Assembly: GCA_031275645.1 (NCBI GenBank)
Contig: JAISOL010000002.1
Coordinates: 1 to 43,115, forward strand
Source: Deltaproteobacteria bacterium
Lineage (GTDB): Bacteria > Desulfobacterota > Desulfovibrionia > Desulfovibrionales > Desulfovibrionaceae
Direction: 5' to 3'
Length of the DNA: 43,115 nt
The position numbers were made by a program, and so were the translations under genes. The first letter of the stretch is position 1. Every line of letters begins with the position of its first letter. The notes under the pieces were generated by a model, which saw nothing but the letters and a program-made list of their open reading frames with translations, did not search any database and had not been told where the DNA came from. Shown piece after piece: positions 1 through 7,912 of this stretch.

Positions 1-49
1 CCTCTGACCGACCATCTACTACATTTCAATAATTAAAGCAACTAGAGCC
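1..49 (-). mobile_element. IS1595-like insertion sequence, 5' end fragment
   Basis: The minus strand starting at 49 reads GGCTCTAGTTGC, the same 12 bases that form the inverted terminal repeat of the transposase-bearing IS fragment at the right edge of the window. Here it has the orientation of the transposase-upstream end, so the element would run leftwards off the window with its gene on the minus strand. No coding sequence is visible in the 37 remaining bases. The bases just outside (50 onward) are an A-run, consistent with the AT-rich targets favoured by IS1595-family elements. The family assignment rests on the right-hand copy. Confidence 0.55.
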
Positions 50-76
50 AAAAAAAATTAAAAAACGCTTGCATCT

Positions 77-162
77 TACACGCTATCGTGTATGCTGCTG
101 TCATATCGTGAAGATATGCGCGTAGTCAGTGGGGTTTTACTCAAACCTACACGATAACGTGA
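77..162. repeat. cluster of three short palindromes, possible operators
   Basis: Three dyads lie in a row. TACACG-CTAT-CGTGTA is at 77-92, CATATC-GTGAA-GATATG at 102-118, and CACG-ATAA-CGTG at 150-161. The first and third share the half site CACG/CGTG with a 4-nt AT-rich centre, which resembles a repeated operator for a dimeric repressor; the middle one carries CGTGAA in its loop. They lie in the long non-coding leader before the amidoligase operon. What binds them is unknown; the winged-helix protein encoded at 3673 is one candidate. Confidence 0.5.
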
Positions 163-605
163 AAGCTCTTTGACATACCCGCCGGCGGCGCCGCTCTCTT
201 CAAAAACAGCTCATGTACACGTCAAAAACGCAAAGTGTGCTGCTTCTCTGAGAGAGAAAACACAAGCGAAGTAAGAGCAGTGCGACTCTGCGACTGAAAC
301 GCTTACTCAAGTCTATATCTTCTCTTCAACAACATCTATCAGTATTACATAAATTTTCTATAGTATAGATGTCTGCTATATAGTGCAGCGCGAGTATTTT
401 ACGAAAGAAAAGAAAGCGATTTACTGCGACATAATAGAAACAAACAAACGTAATAGAAGGTTGTACTGATAAATGTTGTGATAAAGAGACATACAGATAT
501 AGCAAGTAGTTTGTGCGAGTGCTGGTAGGCTTTTACATAAACTACTTTCTTTTGTGATTATACACATACCGAAACGATATAATATAATATAAAAGGGGGA
601 ATATC
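163..605 (+). promoter_or_regulatory. AT-rich untranslated leader and likely promoter of the amidoligase operon
   Basis: No convincing gene is visible in this stretch. A 9-bp inverted repeat, AAGTAGTTT at 504-512 and AAACTACTT at 539-547, can form a hairpin. Overlapping TATAAT boxes sit at 578-583 and 583-588, but the nearest -35-like sequence (TTGTGA, 552-557) is 20 bp from the first, so the promoter is only plausible. A strong Shine-Dalgarno run, AAAAGGGGGA (591-600), precedes the ATG at 606. Confidence 0.4.
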
Positions 606-1748
606 ATGAGCCTTTGCAGAATTTGTACGCGTGTAATAAATGAACATGAAGAAGTAGCTTATATCAGAAACACGCGGGGTTTACCTACTGCTGTTTGTGT
701 TGATTGTTATAACAGACATGCAGCTGTATGCCTGCATTGCAATTCTGTTGTGTTTACTAGTATGCTGTTAAACACCCACGACGTTGCTCATTGTATTCTT
801 TGTGATGAATCTGTTCTTCTTGCTGAAGACGAAGCCGTCGAAGACGTCGAAGACGTCGAAGACGATTTAGTACTATCTTACTCTTTTAAGCCGCGCCCAC
901 AATTCCAGCATTGCAACGAACCCTCAAAACTATATTTTGGGGTCGAAACTGAAATAAATTTTGAAGACGAGTATACTAAAGATTGTGTGTTGAAAACAAT
1001 AAAGCGTGCTGAAAGATATTATTTGCGCGACGGGCTTTTCTATTTAAAGTACGACGGCTCATTGCACTACGGAATAGAATGTGTTTCGCATCCTGCAACG
1101 CTGGGGTTTTGGAAAAAACTTGAAGAAAAAGAACAGTTAGACATATACTTTTCTCTTTTGCGCCACTTCGGCGGGAAAGTGAAAGTTTGTAGTGAAGATA
1201 TATATTATAAAAAAGTTTATACAGCGGGCTTGCATGTTCATATATCTTCTAAATCAATGACAGATTTACACAAATATAGATTTCATTTGTTTATCAATAA
1301 TCTTCAGGACTATTCTGAAGTTATTGCGCGGCGCGAAGGTAATGATTACGCTGTGTATTACGGATATGAAACTTATAGAAAAAATTTAAAAGAATATGTT
1401 GAACAGCAAACTTCAAGAGATTCGTCGCGATATTCAGCTGTGAACTGGACTAACAGAGATACAGTTGAAGTACGTATATTCGCAGCCGCAATGAATGTAA
1501 CAGAGTATTTAACTGCAATAGAATATTGTCATGCTGTATATCAATACACAAAACATTGCGGCATCGGTTACTTACTGAACAATGAAAAACACATAGTGTG
1601 GGCGCATTTCTTGAAGTTCATCGAACATGATAAAAGATATAATAATCTTTGTGCGTTTGTCCGCGGGAGTCAAGAATTGACGGCGGATTATTTGCCGGGT
1701 CAAAAACATAATATCAAAAGAAAAAGGAGAGAAAAAACATGTGCATAA
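606..1748 (+). CDS. phage-type amidoligase (glutamine synthetase-like fold) with N-terminal zinc knuckles
   Basis: The protein has 380 residues. The N-terminus carries four CxxC knuckles (C4/C7, C31/C34, C42/C45, C63/C66), enough for two zinc ribbons. An acidic linker at about 74-87 follows. Residues 108-310 fit the putative amidoligase family (COOH-NH2 ligase, GS fold): FGVETE with E114/E116, DGS at 150-152, a Glu at 158, HVH at 210-212, and a late E288/R290 pair. Known members are thought to use ATP to join an amine to a carboxylate; the substrate here is unknown. The next gene, a class II glutamine amidotransferase, overlaps it by 10 nt and could supply ammonia. The start at 606 has an excellent ribosome binding site. 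Codon use is AT-rich, unlike the backbone, which suggests transfer. Confidence 0.75.
   Translation: MSLCRICTRVINEHEEVAYIRNTRGLPTAVCVDCYNRHAAVCLHCNSVVFTSMLLNTHDVAHCILCDESVLLAEDEAVEDVEDVEDDLVLSYSFKPRPQFQHCNEPSKLYFGVETEINFEDEYTKDCVLKTIKRAERYYLRDGLFYLKYDGSLHYGIECVSHPATLGFWKKLEEKEQLDIYFSLLRHFGGKVKVCSEDIYYKKVYTAGLHVHISSKSMTDLHKYRFHLFINNLQDYSEVIARREGNDYAVYYGYETYRKNLKEYVEQQTSRDSSRYSAVNWTNRDTVEVRIFAAAMNVTEYLTAIEYCHAVYQYTKHCGIGYLLNNEKHIVWAHFLKFIEHDKRYNNLCAFVRGSQELTADYLPGQKHNIKRKRREKTCA
837..863 (+). repeat. three tandem copies of GTCGAAGAC within the amidoligase gene
   Basis: A 9-bp unit, GTCGAAGAC, is repeated three times without a gap and encodes the acidic V-E-D linker between the zinc-knuckle region and the amidoligase domain. 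Copy number could vary by slippage without breaking the frame. Confidence 0.85.
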
Positions 1749-2503
1749 TTGTTGTAAAACCGCGCGGTGTACAAGCTCCGTCACACGACATACTAGATAA
1801 CTGCTTTAACAACAATCAGGATGGTGCTGGGTTCGCTGTTTATTACCCCCTGATGCAGAAAGCGCGAATACAAAAGGGTTTTATGAAAAAAGAAGCGTTT
1901 TCAAGCGCAATAGACAGCGCGGGGATAACAAAAGAAGATATTGTAATATATCATTTTAGAATTACTACAGCAGGAGGAACAGCACAAAAGAATTGTCATC
2001 CCTTCCCTATTTCTGATAATGTTTCAATGTTAGAAGCGCTCGACGTATACACTGACAACGTAATCGCGCACAACGGCATTCTCGGTAAAGGAAAAGAAAC
2101 TTTAAGTGATACAATGTTATACATCAAAGACACTTTGTCTCAATACAACGACATAATCAAACATTTCGATGAAATAAAGGAGGAAACGGAAGGTTCACGG
2201 CTCGCGTTTATACTAGCGGGAGAAATATATTTAACGGGGCGCTGGATTTATGAGGACGGTATATTCTATTCAAATGATACTTATAGCTACTCACATCAAA
2301 GTTGGCCTTACTACTCTAAAAATAAAAATTGGGAATATTATCTTAATGATGAAACGTACTATGGATATGACACAGACAAGAAGGATAAAATAATATGCGC
2401 TTGTTGTGAGGCTGAATTGGATTTTAAAGATGTATATACATACTTTTCTAAAGATGAAGAATACATGGTTTGTAAGACTTGTTTTAATGCCTTACTGCCT
2501 TAA
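1739..2503 (+). CDS. class II glutamine amidotransferase with C-terminal zinc ribbon
   Basis: The protein has 254 residues and begins Met-Cys, so C2 would be the N-terminal nucleophile after Met removal. Other Ntn-amidotransferase signatures follow in order: DGAGF (28-32), HFRITT (72-77), HPFP (87-90) and HNG (111-113). The C-terminus adds a zinc ribbon, C220/C223 and C245/C248. The likely role is glutamine hydrolysis, with ammonia delivered to the amidoligase encoded just upstream. The two genes overlap by 10 nt, and an AAAAGGAGAG ribosome binding site lies inside the upstream gene. Pairing of GS-fold amidoligases with class II amidotransferases is known in phage and mobile-element contexts. 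The C-terminal ribbon echoes the N-terminal knuckles of the partner, which hints that both dock on the same target. The product is unknown. Confidence 0.75.
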   Translation: MCIIVVKPRGVQAPSHDILDNCFNNNQDGAGFAVYYPLMQKARIQKGFMKKEAFSSAIDSAGITKEDIVIYHFRITTAGGTAQKNCHPFPISDNVSMLEALDVYTDNVIAHNGILGKGKETLSDTMLYIKDTLSQYNDIIKHFDEIKEETEGSRLAFILAGEIYLTGRWIYEDGIFYSNDTYSYSHQSWPYYSKNKNWEYYLNDETYYGYDTDKKDKIICACCEAELDFKDVYTYFSKDEEYMVCKTCFNALLP

Positions 2504-2546
2504 TGTCACCCAGAAAATAGAAGTAGCACTAAAAGGAGCAAGCAAT

Positions 2547-2906
2547 ATGACTTTGGACGATAACTATAAAAATTATTTAGGTAAGAAAGTTACTGCGTTA
2601 TTCCCGGAAGATACAACATTTATCGCGCAAACATGCGAAGAACTTGACGTTATTCCAAAGGTTCCACGCGAAGTGGTAATTGAGGCTGTTATATATGCGA
2701 CACCGGATGTGTTATCACGCTACAGCGGTGCCGTTCAACATCTTTCTGTATTTTCTGCTTCTAAGATAATTCATGTTGACCCAGACGATATCTTTGAAAC
2801 GGTTATGCTGGTAGTATCGACGGAAGCGGGTTTCGTAGCGCCTTTTATCATTGTTAGACTTTCGCCACATATGCTTACAATCGGGCATAATGTTATATTA
2901 AATTAA
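2547..2906 (+). CDS. small hypothetical protein of the amidoligase operon
   Basis: The ATG at 2547 is preceded by AAAAGGAG (2531-2538) and gives 119 residues. The longer in-frame reading from 2406 would lie inside the amidotransferase gene and has no such site. I recognise no family. The first half is mixed and acidic; the second half is hydrophobic and beta-rich in appearance, with no cysteine pairs, signal peptide or clear membrane segment. It follows the amidotransferase by 43 nt and is the last gene before a strong terminator, so it is probably co-transcribed and could be an accessory or target protein. Confidence 0.6.
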   Translation: MTLDDNYKNYLGKKVTALFPEDTTFIAQTCEELDVIPKVPREVVIEAVIYATPDVLSRYSGAVQHLSVFSASKIIHVDPDDIFETVMLVVSTEAGFVAPFIIVRLSPHMLTIGHNVILN

Positions 2907-2928
2907 CTAAACAAACATTATATTTCAT

Positions 2929-2969
2929 AAGGGGCATGGAGAAATAAAAAGTTTCCATGCCCCTTTTAT
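2929..2969 (+). terminator. rho-independent terminator of the amidoligase operon
   Basis: GGGGCATGGA (2931-2940) pairs perfectly with TCCATGCCCC (2954-2963), extended by AA/TT outside, and is followed by TTTTATTTA. It sits 22 nt after the stop of the 119-residue protein and separates this operon from the next gene. Confidence 0.9.
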
Positions 2970-3023
2970 TTACTTACCGGCACAGCAACAATAACAACAA
3001 TATAAATAAAAGGAGTTCTTATA

Positions 3024-3419
3024 ATGCAAGCTGTAAAACAAAATTATTTCGTATCTGATGGAGATTATGCGGCGATTCGAGCAGATATAGAGAAAGAAAT
3101 TGGCGGATATGATAATCTTTGTTTATCTGAGAACACAACAAAGATAAAGGATATATTCTTTAGTCTTTGGGGTTTCTTAGTTTCTTTAGAACATACAGAA
3201 AATATACATAAAGAATTGCGTGAGTATTTCACAAGAGAATATGGCTTGAATTTTAAAGATAAAGAGTTCTGGGAATCAGAAGAAGCGTCATATTGTCTAG
3301 ATGAATTGTTCGATGTTTTGGCGGAGCTTTCGCCCGTTGGCTATGAGTTCGGTTGCCATGAGTTCAACCCAACTGATGTCGGTTTCTGGGCGGCTGTGGA
3401 GGGAGGGGGAGAGTATTGA
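3024..3419 (+). CDS. small hypothetical protein, phage-like
   Basis: The protein has 131 residues, with an AAAAGGAG ribosome binding site at 3009-3016. It is acidic and mostly helical in appearance up to about residue 105. The C-terminus contains FGCHEFNPTDVGFW, which recalls small phage and plasmid proteins ending in a pattern like FG-x-H-x-GD-x-S-x-FGFW; this resemblance is from memory and was not searched. No catalytic motif, signal peptide or membrane segment is visible. It stands between the terminator at 2969 and the regulatory hairpin at 3562, so it may be a single-gene unit. No function is proposed. Confidence 0.6.
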   Translation: MQAVKQNYFVSDGDYAAIRADIEKEIGGYDNLCLSENTTKIKDIFFSLWGFLVSLEHTENIHKELREYFTREYGLNFKDKEFWESEEASYCLDELFDVLAELSPVGYEFGCHEFNPTDVGFWAAVEGGGEY

Positions 3420-3672
3420 TTAGATGAAAAAGGCAGTATAACTAAACAGTTATCCCTTAAAATTTTCGCTTGCTTTTCCCTTCGCCTTTGTTTATAATTA
3501 TCAACACAAATCTAAAATTCTCTGAACATATCGCATTCTTTCTTTTCAAAAGCACTCTTATTTGTGGACAGCAAGTATTATTGTTAGCTTGTATTTGAGT
3601 TACAATTTATTGATACTTGCTGTCCACAATCCCTAAATACATATATAATATAAATAAACAGGATAAAATATC
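3420..3672 (+). repeat. non-coding region with a 17-bp perfect inverted repeat
   Basis: TTGTGGACAGCAAGTAT (3562-3578) is matched exactly in inverse at 3613-3629, with a 34-nt centre. TATAAT follows at 3644-3649, and the regulator gene starts at 3673. The arm end TGTCCACAAT recurs at 3830-3839 inside the regulator gene, and GTCCACAAT again at 4489-4497 inside the integrase gene. The arms resemble a DnaA box (TTATCCACA) at 7 of 9 positions. The repeat could be an operator, a cruciform, or an origin or recombination site. There is no gene in 3420-3672. Confidence 0.75.
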
Positions 3673-4164
3673 ATGACTATACAAGACCTACATACATTCA
3701 TCGGCTTGATTAGAACACAATCGAATCACGCAACGGAAATGGATTTAACTTTGTTGGACATACTTATTCATGTCGCTTTATATCCTAGACATAACGCTGC
3801 ATTTTACGGAAAGCTTTTAAATATCCCTTTGTCCACAATGTCCAATCATTTAAGAGCGCTTAGAAGCGGTTCTTATAATATGCGTATACAGAAATATGGG
3901 CTTGGGTTGCTTGACGGTATCCCGGACGCTAAGGATTGGCGGCGCGTTAGTGTGACGGTATCTAGAAGAGGCTATTTGTTGATTCAACAATTATTAAATA
4001 TAGGAGCTTCACAAAATGACACAAGTGTTGGAAACCCTTTCATCACAGAGGCGCAACAAGCAGAACAAGCGGAATCAGAAGAGCAGCAAAGAATCTATAC
4101 AGAGTTTCAAAGGTATAAGGGAACTTCCGGACGGGCGTTGGAAAGTGGAGGTGATGTTGAATAA
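3673..4164 (+). CDS. MarR-like winged-helix DNA-binding protein
   Basis: The protein has 163 residues. Residues 22-110 look like a MarR/ArsR-type winged helix: a helix with LTLLDILIHVAL, a recognition helix at LSTMSNHLRALRS (about 53-65), then a wing containing RRVSVTVSRRG (about 96-106). The last 49 residues, polar and rich in Gln and Glu, are encoded in the stretch that also encodes the integrase N-terminus in another frame. Its place between a large inverted repeat and the integrase suggests a regulator of integration or excision. The ribosome binding site is weak (ACAGGATAAAATATC before the ATG). Confidence 0.65.
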   Translation: MTIQDLHTFIGLIRTQSNHATEMDLTLLDILIHVALYPRHNAAFYGKLLNIPLSTMSNHLRALRSGSYNMRIQKYGLGLLDGIPDAKDWRRVSVTVSRRGYLLIQQLLNIGASQNDTSVGNPFITEAQQAEQAESEEQQRIYTEFQRYKGTSGRALESGGDVE

Positions 4165-5170
4165 GCAGCGCCTTTCTGCTCGCGTAAGCTCTTTGGTGGA
4201 AGCCTTAACTAAACGTCAGGAATTATTAAATAAACTTCAAAATCCGGAATTATGTTGCACTAATAGAAGAGAAAAAGAAGAAAATGAAACAAGTCTTACC
4301 CTAAAACATGCTATTCTTCAAACAATTAAGCTATATTGGCGGAATAACAGGGAATATAAGAAGGGTATGAACGGAAGGCTGCGGCAAATGTGCGAATATT
4401 TTGGAGAAAATACCCCAATTCAGCGGATAACCACAGAAAAGATAGCCGCTTATACTCATTGGCTGGAAGCGAATACAAAAAACAGAGCGTCCACAATAAA
4501 CAAAAAAGTTATGACGTTAAGTAAAGTGCTTAGGACGGCTTATAATTTAGGGCAAACAAACAGAATGCCCAGGATGTATAAATTACCTTGTAAATCCCAA
4601 AGGATACGTTATTTGACGAAACAGGAAGAAGAGGTAACTTTAAAGCTCTTTAAATCAATGACTTCTGAGGCGCATGTTGACGCTTTCCAAGTTTTAATAG
4701 ATACTGGTTTCCGTCTCAGCGAACTCTGGGGCTTGACGTCGGAGCATGTTAATTTTGACGTTAACGCTATAAATCTATGGGAGGGTACAACGAAAAACGG
4801 CAAGGCGCGAACTGTGCCTATGACCGCCCGCGTTCGAGAAATTATGACGAGGCGCTGTAAAGAATATCCCGGCAAGCTTTGGCCTAAAGGTTCCAATTCT
4901 TGGTTTGAACATCAGTGGAATCGCGTACGTTTAATATTAAATAAACAGAAGGATAGAACTTGGGTTCCACATGTGCTCCGCCACACTTGCTGCTCTCGGC
5001 TTGTACAAGCGGGAGTGAATTTATTCTTGGTTCAGCAATGGATGGGGCACAAAAGTCTTGCAATCACACAGCTTTACGCGCATCATTCTCCGGAGCATTT
5101 GCGTATAGCGGGGGAATGCTTGGAAAATTTTACGGCGGGCATAAGTGAGAAAAGTAATACTACAAAATAG
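4016..5170 (+). CDS. int: tyrosine recombinase / site-specific integrase
   Basis: The protein has 384 residues. An N-terminal arm-type DNA-binding domain is seen around ELPDGRWKVEVML (36-48), a SAM-like core-binding domain at about 95-190, and a catalytic domain at about 195-370. Catalytic residues are R233 (GFRLSELWG), a Lys near 258 (TKNGKART), H319-x-x-R322 (HVLRH), H345 (WMGHK) and Y354 (QLYAH). All expected residues are present, so it should be active. The ATG at 4016 has AGGAG at 4002-4006, so the 149-nt overlap with the regulator gene is probably real. It is the last gene of the AT-rich island and marks its likely right boundary. Confidence 0.9.
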   Translation: MTQVLETLSSQRRNKQNKRNQKSSKESIQSFKGIRELPDGRWKVEVMLNKQRLSARVSSLVEALTKRQELLNKLQNPELCCTNRREKEENETSLTLKHAILQTIKLYWRNNREYKKGMNGRLRQMCEYFGENTPIQRITTEKIAAYTHWLEANTKNRASTINKKVMTLSKVLRTAYNLGQTNRMPRMYKLPCKSQRIRYLTKQEEEVTLKLFKSMTSEAHVDAFQVLIDTGFRLSELWGLTSEHVNFDVNAINLWEGTTKNGKARTVPMTARVREIMTRRCKEYPGKLWPKGSNSWFEHQWNRVRLILNKQKDRTWVPHVLRHTCCSRLVQAGVNLFLVQQWMGHKSLAITQLYAHHSPEHLRIAGECLENFTAGISEKSNTTK

Positions 5171-5232
5171 CTTAATTTTCGGTATGTGTGTAATCGCTCT
5201 TTTGTGCATTTTAAGTAAGACTGAAATGAGAG

Positions 5233-5263
5233 AATTACGCCGTGGCGTAATTTTGGCGTAATT
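5233..5263. repeat. AATTACGCC / GGCGTAATT repeat cluster beyond the integrase, possible att region
   Basis: AATTACGCC (5233-5241) and GGCGTAATT (5244-5252) form a perfect 9-bp inverted repeat with a 2-nt centre. GGCGTAATT is repeated directly at 5255-5263, and a truncated TTGGCG copy follows. It lies 63 nt after the integrase stop, at the shift from AT-rich to GC-richer DNA. It may be a recombinase or Xis binding array or an att core; no tRNA is nearby. A hairpin terminator lacking a clean T-run is an alternative. Confidence 0.5.
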
Positions 5264-5335
5264 TGGCGAAAAATTAGAGGGAAGCGAATAACTAACCCAT
5301 TGGAATAGTTAAGCCCAAAAGTATGTAGTCGCTCT

Positions 5336-5623
5336 ATGAGACAAACCTTGTACTGGTTCAATTTTGCTGTGAAACCGCTCAAGCCCATGTTGGAGAGGGT
5401 AAAAGGCGGAGATCCGGTTGTGTACGGCGGGATGCCCATTGCGAGTTTTGAAAAGCTGCTTGAGGAAGAAACGTTGCAACAGGTTGAAGTTGCGGAATAC
5501 GGCTGGCTTTGGCGCTATGCGGCGCAAACACCACTGCCGGAAAACGCTCCAGCGTTTGATGAATGGCGAATTGCGGTATTCTACTCGCCAAAAAATCAGA
5601 TATTGAGTCCGCTCGACTTGTAA
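5336..5623 (+). CDS. orphan hypothetical protein, possibly a gene remnant
   Basis: A 95-residue reading frame follows the integrase repeats. Its composition (YGWLWRYA, FDEWRIAVFYSP) looks like real protein, and base use lies between that of the island and the backbone. There is no convincing ribosome binding site before the ATG, and the family is not recognised. It could be an intact small gene, or the 3' part of a host gene cut by the island. A minus-strand frame across the same DNA looks less protein-like. Confidence 0.4.
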   Translation: MRQTLYWFNFAVKPLKPMLERVKGGDPVVYGGMPIASFEKLLEEETLQQVEVAEYGWLWRYAAQTPLPENAPAFDEWRIAVFYSPKNQILSPLDL

Positions 5624-5701
5624 CACCGCGCAATTCTTACATTGATGCAAGTAAGTCCGCCTGCCAGCCGTTGTCAATATAAGCGGATATGGATTTTCAC
5701 G

Positions 5702-7912
5702 TCAGGCCGCGCCTTCCTGGGGGACGGAGCGGATTACCTCGTACACGGCAGGCAAGGCGCGCAGCTTGGCCATAACCTGGTAAAGCTGCACCGTATCCCT
5801 GACCTCCACCAGCAGGTCTATTTCCGATCTTCCGTCCAGAGAGGAGCGGATATTGCCCGAACCTATATTGATGTCTTCCTTGAGCAGTATGCCGGAAACC
5901 TCGTGCAGGACGCCCTTGACGTTGCGCGAGCTTATATGGATGCGCGTGGGGAAGGGGTGCTCCGTTGAACCGTCCCAGTTCACGCTGATCAGGCGCTCCG
6001 GCTCGGCGGCCAGAATGGCCGGGCAGTCGGCCGTATGAATGGTGATGCCCCGCCCCCGGCTTATATAGCCTATAATGTGATCTCCGGGCACCGGATTGCA
6101 GCACTTGGCGAAACGGCGCAGAATACCGCTCCCTCCGGAGATCTTTATGCTTTCGGCCCTGCGTTCCTCCTCGCTTTTGGAAAAAGCGGCGCCCCCGGCC
6201 GCAGAGGGAGCCGCATCCTGAGAGACGGGGGGCGGAGGGGCGGAAAGGGCGCCCCCCTCATCCGAGGGCAGACCCAGTTGCTCTTTCATGGCGCGCAAAA
6301 CCGTCCGCGCCTGGGCCTGAGAATAGCCCACGGCCGCGTAGAGATCTTCCAGGGTCTTTACGCGGAATTCCGCGTAAAGCTGCGTCAGGTTGACCTCCTT
6401 AATCGCCTTCTGAAAATTCAGATTGTAGCGTCGGCCCTGTTTTTCCAGGATGTCGCGCCCCAGGCTGACGGCGCGGCCTCTCTCCTCCGTGCGGAGATAG
6501 TGCTGTATGCGCGACCTGGCTTTGGCGGTCTTTACGAATTTGAGCCAGTCCCTGTTGGGATGGCGGGCGGAATCAGTGATTATCTCCACGTAATCGCCGC
6601 TTTTGAGCCTGGTATTCAGAGGAACGAGGCGGCTGTTCACCTTGGCTCCGGAGCAGTTATCACCTACCTTGGAATGCACCTGATAGGCAAAATCCACCGG
6701 AGTCGCGCCTTCGGGCAGCTCTTTCACATCTCCTTGGGGAGTGAAAACATAAATTTCGTCCGTAAAAAGATCCACCCGCAAAGTGCGCAGGAATTCCAGG
6801 GAATCGTTTTCTTCCCTCTGCCAATCCAGCATTTCCCGCAGCCAGGAGAGTTGCTGCACATCCTTGGCCTTGATCTTGCCGCCTTCCTTATACAGCCAGT
6901 GGGCGGCCAGACCGTTTTCCGCCATGTAATCCATCTCTTCGGTGCGAATCTGCAATTCCATGCGCTCGCCGCGCGGTCCCGCCACCGTGGTATGCAGGCT
7001 CTGATACATATTGGCTTTGGGCACGGAAATATAATCCTTGAAACGCCCGGGAACGGGCTTCCAGGCCGAATGAGCCAGACCTAGAACATTATAGCAGTCT
7101 TTTATTTCCTGAACCACAATGCGGAAGGCGATGATGTCGTACATATCGTCCAGAGGGAGGTGCTTGGACTGCATCTTGCGGTAAATGCTGTAGTAATGCT
7201 TGATGCGCCCCTTGACCCGCGCCCGGATGGAAGCGGCGGCAATCATTTCCCGCAGGGAGGCGATCACCTCGGCGATATAGGCGGCGTCGGCGGCGCGGTG
7301 TTCTTCAATCCATTTGTCTATCTGGGCATAGACGTCAGGCCGTATATATCTGAAACTCAGGTCTTCCAGTTCCAGCTTGATGCGGTGAAGACCCAGGCGG
7401 TTGGCCAGAGGCGCGTATATATCCATGGTTTCCTGCGCGATGCTCTTCTGCTTTTCCGACTTCTGGAACTGCAGGGTGCGCATGTTGTGCAACCTGTCGG
7501 CCAGCTTTACCAGCAGCACCCTGATATCCTCGCTTGTAGCCAGAATCATCTTGCGTATGCTTTCGGCCTGCTGTTCCTCCTTGCTGTCAAAGGAAATCAG
7601 GCTGATCTTGGTGACCCCGTCCACCACGTCAGCCACTTCTTCGCCGAACTCCTCCCGCACATGTTCTATGGTGGTGCGGGTGTCCTCCACCGTATCATGC
7701 AGAAAACCGGCTATGATGCTGGTGTCGTCCAGATGCAGATCGGCCAGGGCGTCGGCCACGGCCAGAGGATGGGAAAGATAGGGCTCGCCGGAAAGGCGGG
7801 TCTGCCCGGCATGCATGGCCGCGGCAAAGACATAGGCCTTGCGTATGCCTTCCACATCCGCGTCCGGCCTGTAGGCGACGACCTTATCCAATATTTCCTG
7901 TATGCGGATCAT
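5702..7912 (-). CDS. rel: bifunctional (p)ppGpp synthetase/hydrolase, Rel/SpoT family
   Basis: The protein has 736 residues, the usual length of long RSH enzymes. It has an N-terminal HD hydrolase domain (H48, HDTVED at 72-77), a synthetase domain (RFKDYISVPK, YQSLHTTV, QIRTEEMD), a TGS domain (FTPQGDVKELPEGATPVDF), a zinc-finger/RIS region with FAKCCNPVPGD, and a C-terminal ACT domain. Both hydrolase and synthetase motifs look intact, so it should make and degrade (p)ppGpp in the cytosol. The ATG at 7912 overlaps the stop of the upstream peptide-binding protein gene as ATGA. The longer frame to 7960 lies inside that gene and adds no conserved residues. No second RSH gene is seen here. Confidence 0.95.
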   Translation of the reverse strand: MIRIQEILDKVVAYRPDADVEGIRKAYVFAAAMHAGQTRLSGEPYLSHPLAVADALADLHLDDTSIIAGFLHDTVEDTRTTIEHVREEFGEEVADVVDGVTKISLISFDSKEEQQAESIRKMILATSEDIRVLLVKLADRLHNMRTLQFQKSEKQKSIAQETMDIYAPLANRLGLHRIKLELEDLSFRYIRPDVYAQIDKWIEEHRAADAAYIAEVIASLREMIAAASIRARVKGRIKHYYSIYRKMQSKHLPLDDMYDIIAFRIVVQEIKDCYNVLGLAHSAWKPVPGRFKDYISVPKANMYQSLHTTVAGPRGERMELQIRTEEMDYMAENGLAAHWLYKEGGKIKAKDVQQLSWLREMLDWQREENDSLEFLRTLRVDLFTDEIYVFTPQGDVKELPEGATPVDFAYQVHSKVGDNCSGAKVNSRLVPLNTRLKSGDYVEIITDSARHPNRDWLKFVKTAKARSRIQHYLRTEERGRAVSLGRDILEKQGRRYNLNFQKAIKEVNLTQLYAEFRVKTLEDLYAAVGYSQAQARTVLRAMKEQLGLPSDEGGALSAPPPPVSQDAAPSAAGGAAFSKSEEERRAESIKISGGSGILRRFAKCCNPVPGDHIIGYISRGRGITIHTADCPAILAAEPERLISVNWDGSTEHPFPTRIHISSRNVKGVLHEVSGILLKEDINIGSGNIRSSLDGRSEIDLLVEVRDTVQLYQVMAKLRALPAVYEVIRSVPQEGAA

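Follow-up and report, generated by a model that had tools for sequence, protein, structure and literature searches.

The window analyzed here, a stretch of 43,115 nucleotides from the deltaproteobacterial contig JAISOL010000002.1, carries near its left end two adjoining genes whose products we interpret, with a probability of roughly two in three, as a two-subunit ATP- and glutamine-dependent amidating enzyme borne on a prophage or related integrated element. The first gene encodes a predicted amidoligase of the GS superfamily and the second a predicted class II amidotransferase. In the mechanism that we propose, the glutaminase would cleave glutamine at Cys2 and hand the ammonia to the ligase, which would activate a carboxylate with ATP (as an acyl phosphate, as in glutamine synthetase) and then form the amide; LIM-like cysteine modules on both proteins would serve chiefly to keep the complex assembled or to position it. 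The substrate would most likely be a host cytosolic peptide, a cell-wall precursor or a protein, and our guess is that its alteration would benefit the element, for example against competing phages.

The amidoligase ORF (380 aa) occupies positions 606–1748 and the amidotransferase ORF (254 aa, starting Met-Cys) positions 1739–2503, both on the forward strand, and together they form a compact pair of 1.9 kb. The two ORFs overlap by 10 nt, such that the start of the amidotransferase (ATGTGCATAA) contains the stop codon of the amidoligase gene; a preliminary description of this DNA had given both the ORF coordinates and the overlap exactly. Methylophilales phage MEP401 shows the same 10-nt overlap, as do several viral contigs, for example L212, L235 and L240.

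Evidence on the amidoligase comes from family searches, a predicted structure and residue conservation. The window's protein scores 14.9 bits against PF12224 (Amidoligase_2), for which the curated cut-off is 22, and 69 of 71 aligned relatives match the same family (E up to 0.01); matches to the phage families phrog_16683 (E 6e-21) and phrog_22302 (E 4e-17) were also recovered. The best Foldseek matches of its AlphaFold2 model (pLDDT 82.5) all belong to the GS superfamily and comprise glutamine synthetases (E 1.5e-4 for glutamine synthetase), YbdK, Dop and PafA. VIA-align gave Z values of 13.3 against a YbdK-like structure (1tt4), 13.1 against plant glutamate-cysteine ligase and 13.0 against YbdK, and of about 11–12 against many glutamine synthetases. 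Residues E114, E116, D150-G151-S152, H210, H212, E288 and R290 are invariant in eight aligned phage proteins. Across 71–78 amidoligase relatives the invariant set consists of G112, E114, E116, D150, S152, G156, E158, P163, G208, H210, H212, R243, T286, E288 and R290, and G151 of the DGS motif is at least 90% conserved. In glutamine synthetases, metal and ATP are bound at elements of the pattern E-x-E, G-x-H-x3-S and E-x-R, in which the acidic, histidine and arginine residues of the family are invariant. The amidoligase looks catalytically intact.

The amidotransferase matches GATase_4 (E 1.2e-4), as do 35 of 53 relatives, and its sequence profile matches GlmS (E 6e-9) and PurF. Its model (pLDDT 87.8) has a predicted Ntn fold, with Foldseek matches to GFAT/GlmS, PurF and EgtC. 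Cys2, H72-x-R74, H111-N112-G113 and D124 are invariant in the 53 relatives; we take Cys2, R74, N112-G113 and D124 to be equivalent to the nucleophile and glutamine-binding positions of GlmS, and this enzyme likewise looks catalytically intact. The enzyme assignments of the preliminary description were therefore well founded: the class II (Ntn) amidotransferase is recovered by both profile and structure, the amidoligase residues that it had named are all present and invariant apart from G151, and the GS fold, for which it had regarded the lack of an amidoligase fold in structure prediction as decisive counterevidence, is what Foldseek and VIA-align find in the predicted structure.

Class II Ntn enzymes are also capable of hydrolyzing gamma-glutamyl groups, an activity that would place such a pair in a different pathway. 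Under this alternative the GS-fold enzyme would couple an amine to glutamate or to a different acid, the gamma-glutamyl group would be taken off later by the Ntn enzyme, and no ammonia would be transferred. We judge this scenario to be distinctly unlikely, although the structural comparisons lend it some substance: YbdK and plant glutamate-cysteine ligase, the best VIA-align matches of the ligase, exceed glutamine synthetase by only about 1–2 Z, and EgtC is one of the structural matches of the partner. EgtA, the GS-superfamily ligase of ergothioneine synthesis, and EgtC resemble the window's pair in that a GS-superfamily ligase is accompanied by an Ntn class II-like partner. Unlike the enzyme proposed here, EgtC removes a gamma-glutamyl group rather than supplying ammonia, and it is not matched by sequence; the best sequence matches of the amidotransferase are instead GlmS and PurF, which produce ammonia. 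Genes for gamma-glutamyl cyclotransferase are found near amidoligases in prophages of C. clostridioforme (PMC11318856). The operon in the window contains no middle enzyme, however, and its overlapping genes, together with the co-evolution of the two proteins described below, are more readily explained by a channelling complex than by a two-step pathway.

Beyond their catalytic domains, both proteins carry cysteine modules, and we infer that these bind zinc. The amidoligase has an N-terminal Cys8 region (residues 1–70) with the CxxC pairs C4/C7, C31/C34, C42/C45 and C63/C66, all four conserved to at least 90% in the alignments, and the amidotransferase has a C-terminal Cys4 module (residues 220–248) with the pairs C220-C223 and C245-C248. 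A profile of the amidoligase family matches LIM-domain structures (best E 1.2e-4), and a viral database entry in the amidoligase fold search bears the name "LIM domain containing protein"; PF00412 (LIM) itself is matched by 13 of 71 relatives and not by the window protein. The preliminary description had seen added zinc-knuckle cysteines on both enzymes; modules are indeed present on both, whereas the zinc-knuckle label gives way to a LIM-like one, given the profile match of the relatives. Modules of the LIM-like type serve in protein interactions.

Relatives generally carry cysteine modules on one enzyme or on both. A survey of 142 non-redundant pairs, the counts of which lean on how loci were sampled, found modules on both partners in 49, on the amidoligase only in 61, on the amidotransferase only in five and on neither in 27. 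Modules on both partners are commonest among the pairs that the amidoligase scan recovered in IMG/VR contigs (36 of 40), many of which lie near WhiB-type genes, and the pair of mycobacteriophage Marvin has them at the same places as the window, at the N-terminus of the amidoligase and the C-terminus of the amidotransferase. The C-terminal module is absent from the amidotransferase in all 40 pairs from genomes, which are mostly of the Ruminococcus type; a module on both partners is therefore not required.

One possibility, suggested in the preliminary description and in our assessment rather improbable, is that both modules dock on one macromolecular target, a protein or nucleic acid, which the pair then amidates or ligates. 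The presence of LIM-like modules on enzymes, their occurrence on both partners in about a third of the surveyed pairs, and the protein-acting GS-fold enzymes PafA and Dop among the fold matches of the amidoligase all speak for such docking. The modules could serve equally well for contact between the enzymes, however, as in MurT/GatD; many amidotransferases of the pair have no module, no conserved target gene lies nearby, and the likeness between the two modules when aligned to each other with hhalign (probability 68–88%) is weak and carried by the cysteines. Modules that hold the two enzymes together are, in our analysis, at least as likely as modules that dock on a common target. The structure solved for MurT/GatD, an amidating complex, has a cysteine-rich, zinc-ribbon-like insertion that contributes to the interface between ligase and glutaminase, and a cysteine mutant associates more weakly with GatD and is unstable (PMC6085368). 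MurT/GatD resembles the window in being a gene pair for an ATP ligase and a glutaminase with a Cys4 element at the interface; it differs in combining a Mur-ligase fold with a class I glutaminase, as against a GS fold with a class II Ntn enzyme, and the two systems may be said to work alike while being unrelated. A broader version of the docking idea, in which the modules on both enzymes mark a widespread class of two-subunit, protein-modifying amidating enzymes, found alike in phages and in mobilizable elements, which recruit one and the same host protein as target and reprogram the host against competing elements, appears to us to be quite improbable.

The preferred reading of a two-subunit amidating enzyme draws on the conservation of the two genes as a pair. 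Amidoligase relatives were collected in scans made without reference to the partner, and the best 80 of 278 relatives in reference genomes (GTDB) and the best 80 of 431 in viral contigs were kept. For 80 of the 89 non-redundant amidoligases among these best 80 per scan (40 of 47 from genomes and 40 of 42 from viral contigs), an amidotransferase gene follows downstream in the same orientation at a distance of up to 3.5 kb, and some of those with no partner downstream stand at contig ends. Across all 142 pairs, a median of 12 nt separates the two genes. The pairwise distances for one protein correlate with those for the other, with r = 0.77 overall, 0.83 for viral pairs and 0.80 for genome pairs, compared with 0.06, 0.10 and 0.31, respectively, for the best of 500 shuffles. 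The expectation that the pair would be conserved together in other genomes is thus borne out by both the downstream partners and the correlated distances. No fusion of the two enzymes was found among 7,735 ORFs of related loci. In phylogenetic trees, the window's amidoligase falls beside a clade that holds Marvin (support 0.84–0.91), and the amidotransferase of the window groups with a few proteins from the phage contigs L191, L193, L196 and L212 (support 0.92); these differing placements, estimated from distances near saturation, hint at a possible old exchange of partners.

The carriers of the pair are diverse. Relatives occur in phages of Mycobacterium, Methylophilales, Acinetobacter and Christensenellales, and also in Ruminococcus flavefaciens and other Clostridia, where they lie beside genes for a relaxase, a NikA-like protein, a serine resolvase and DUF960; the clostridial pairs apparently sit on mobilizable elements. 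Strains of R. flavefaciens (loci L029–L108, from GTDB genomes) have several pairs each, for example six loci in strain XPD3002, and many of these pairs have genes for a relaxase, a NikA-like mobilization protein and a serine resolvase beside them; the pair is apparently a common cargo of integrative mobilizable elements. These R. flavefaciens pairs resemble the window in that a mobile element carries an amidoligase with a LIM-like region and, next to it, a class II amidotransferase, and differ in that their amidotransferase is of another subfamily (~320 aa) and has no C-terminal module. In most of 56 loci among the viral contigs (L109–L188), the pair is followed two or three genes downstream by a gene of the WhiB family, a sign of actinobacterial phages. 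Two amidoligase genes were seen at L049, L041, L211, L221, L250 and L253; at some of these loci one gene is paired and the other is an additional copy, which suggests that the gene was duplicated or that the targets differ. Viral contig L220 encodes four amidotransferase paralogues with no amidoligase detected in the stretch examined. The neighbors of the pair differ wholly between phages, actinophages and mobilizable elements and thus give no hint of the substrate, and no DNA-modification genes stood out among the neighbors scanned.

In the window, the pair shares its transcription unit with an orphan ORF of 119 aa (positions 2547–2906, forward strand), which starts 43 nt downstream and shares the same terminator. 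This intrinsic terminator, at about 2929–2965 on the forward strand, consists of a hairpin (−23.1 kcal/mol, z −5.0; no shuffle was equally stable) followed by a U-rich run, and the strong terminator noted in the preliminary description is therefore real; a simple scanner missed it because the 9-nt loop exceeds the length that the scanner allows. The position of the third gene and the common terminator count in favor of a toxin-like system in which its product is either the substrate or an immunity protein; the preliminary description had suggested the target or an immunity factor. Such a role is unsupported, and we regard it as highly improbable: a search of 50,697 phage records returned no match to the 119-aa protein, the 7,735 ORFs from related loci include no relative, and hence none beside any other pair there, and profile searches gave no family over the cut-off. 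As a conserved part of the system the gene is ruled out, being private to this locus. On the 5′ side of the operon, positions 52–605 (~550 bp) contain no clear gene and show short repeats around "cacgctatcgtgt" and "cacgataacgtg"; this stretch could be a regulatory region. A search of positions 1–6000 against Rfam returned no RNA family.

The surroundings of the operon bear the marks of a mobile island. Downstream of the terminator, on the forward strand, lie a gene for a phage-type protein of 131 aa (3024–3419; phrog_29605, E 4.6e-5, over the C-terminal part), a helix-turn-helix phage-type transcriptional regulator (3673–4164; phrog_9665, E 7.5e-7) and the tyrosine integrase of the island (4016–5170; PF00589, E 1.6e-24; phrog_1, E 4.7e-51). 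Short C-terminal matches to the 131-aa protein are found in Pseudomonas phages KPP25 and phiR18. When read from its first start codon, the integrase frame overlaps the regulator gene by 149 nt; the integrase may in fact begin at a later start codon, or its translation may be linked to that of the regulator. The G+C content is about 0.34–0.44 over positions 1–5250, compared with 0.55–0.62 in the host sequence beyond 5500. The earlier placement of the operon in a mobile island is upheld by the integrase and by this contrast; the integrase is present as described, although it does not lie beside the operon, as two small genes stand in between.

The amidoligase is absent from all six other genomes of the genus, and among 199 genomes drawn from the family it occurs only in the window's own. 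This absence from the genus, the low G+C content and the phage-type neighbors lead us to view the locus as part of an integrated phage-like element, either as its cargo or as what remains of it; the pair is probably carried by a prophage or related integrated element. Since related genomes of the genus match the window only from ~5726–5760 onward, the right border of the island falls between 5170 and about 5750. At the other side, positions 1–51 are the outer end of a multicopy insertion sequence (no strand assigned), a 52-bp match to which recurs at ten or more other contig ends of the same genome, with differing flanks in the copies inspected. Many assembly breaks in this genome are attributable to this insertion sequence, and the left part of the island is missing because the assembly breaks there. 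An attachment-site repeat of the island was looked for and not found, as the left end is lost at the insertion sequence.

The gene pair itself has a history in the literature, and the window adds another example of a pair that was previously predicted and annotated. A role in the cell wall and in superinfection was reportedly proposed for such pairs by Iyer et al. in 2009, and annotations and roles are also said to trace to Mageeney et al. in 2012. The pairs of mycobacteriophage Marvin (gp105/gp106) and Methylophilales phage MEP401 (gp05/gp06) comprise the same two families in the same order and on the same strand as the window, although identity is only ~25–29% and the host, the element and the third gene differ. 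Both genes are listed in the LUZ24-like phage UFV-P2 (PMC3890496), OM43 phages carry them as well (PMC10580990), and amidoligases are listed in C. clostridioforme prophages (PMC11318856). The novelty implied by the preliminary description does not hold, as the pair had been annotated in Marvin, OM43 and LUZ24-like phages and discussed, and the modules are widespread among relatives. The amidotransferase matched only PDC-S57 (E 0.02) among PADLOC models, and a role of the pair as an anti-phage defence system is weakened, with no credible PADLOC match and no paper linking amidoligase, defense system and mobile genetic elements.

Amidation of a peptidoglycan precursor or receptor that blocks superinfection would be a narrower form of the amidating-enzyme explanation. 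The OM43-phage and C. clostridioforme papers attribute such a role, involving cell-wall modification and superinfection, to phiEco32 and cite Iyer et al. 2009 for it (PMC10580990; PMC11318856); for the genes of Marvin, the former paper names metabolites and host interaction (PMC10580990). MurT/GatD, also a ligase with a glutaminase, performs amidation on the cell wall, and the pair occurs in unrelated mobile elements. Even so, the literature searched yielded no experimental test of this role and no substrate of the pair, and a structural relative is listed in a giant virus, Catovirus CTV1. As such viruses infect eukaryotes, which have no peptidoglycan, the fold family is not specific to the cell wall, and we consider this narrower form rather unlikely.

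The broader interest of these results lies in the question of substrate for the family as a whole. The pair occurs in phages that infect widely differing bacteria and in the mobilizable elements of gut Firmicutes, and, as modules on both enzymes recur widely, a function settled for any one pair could settle that of hundreds.
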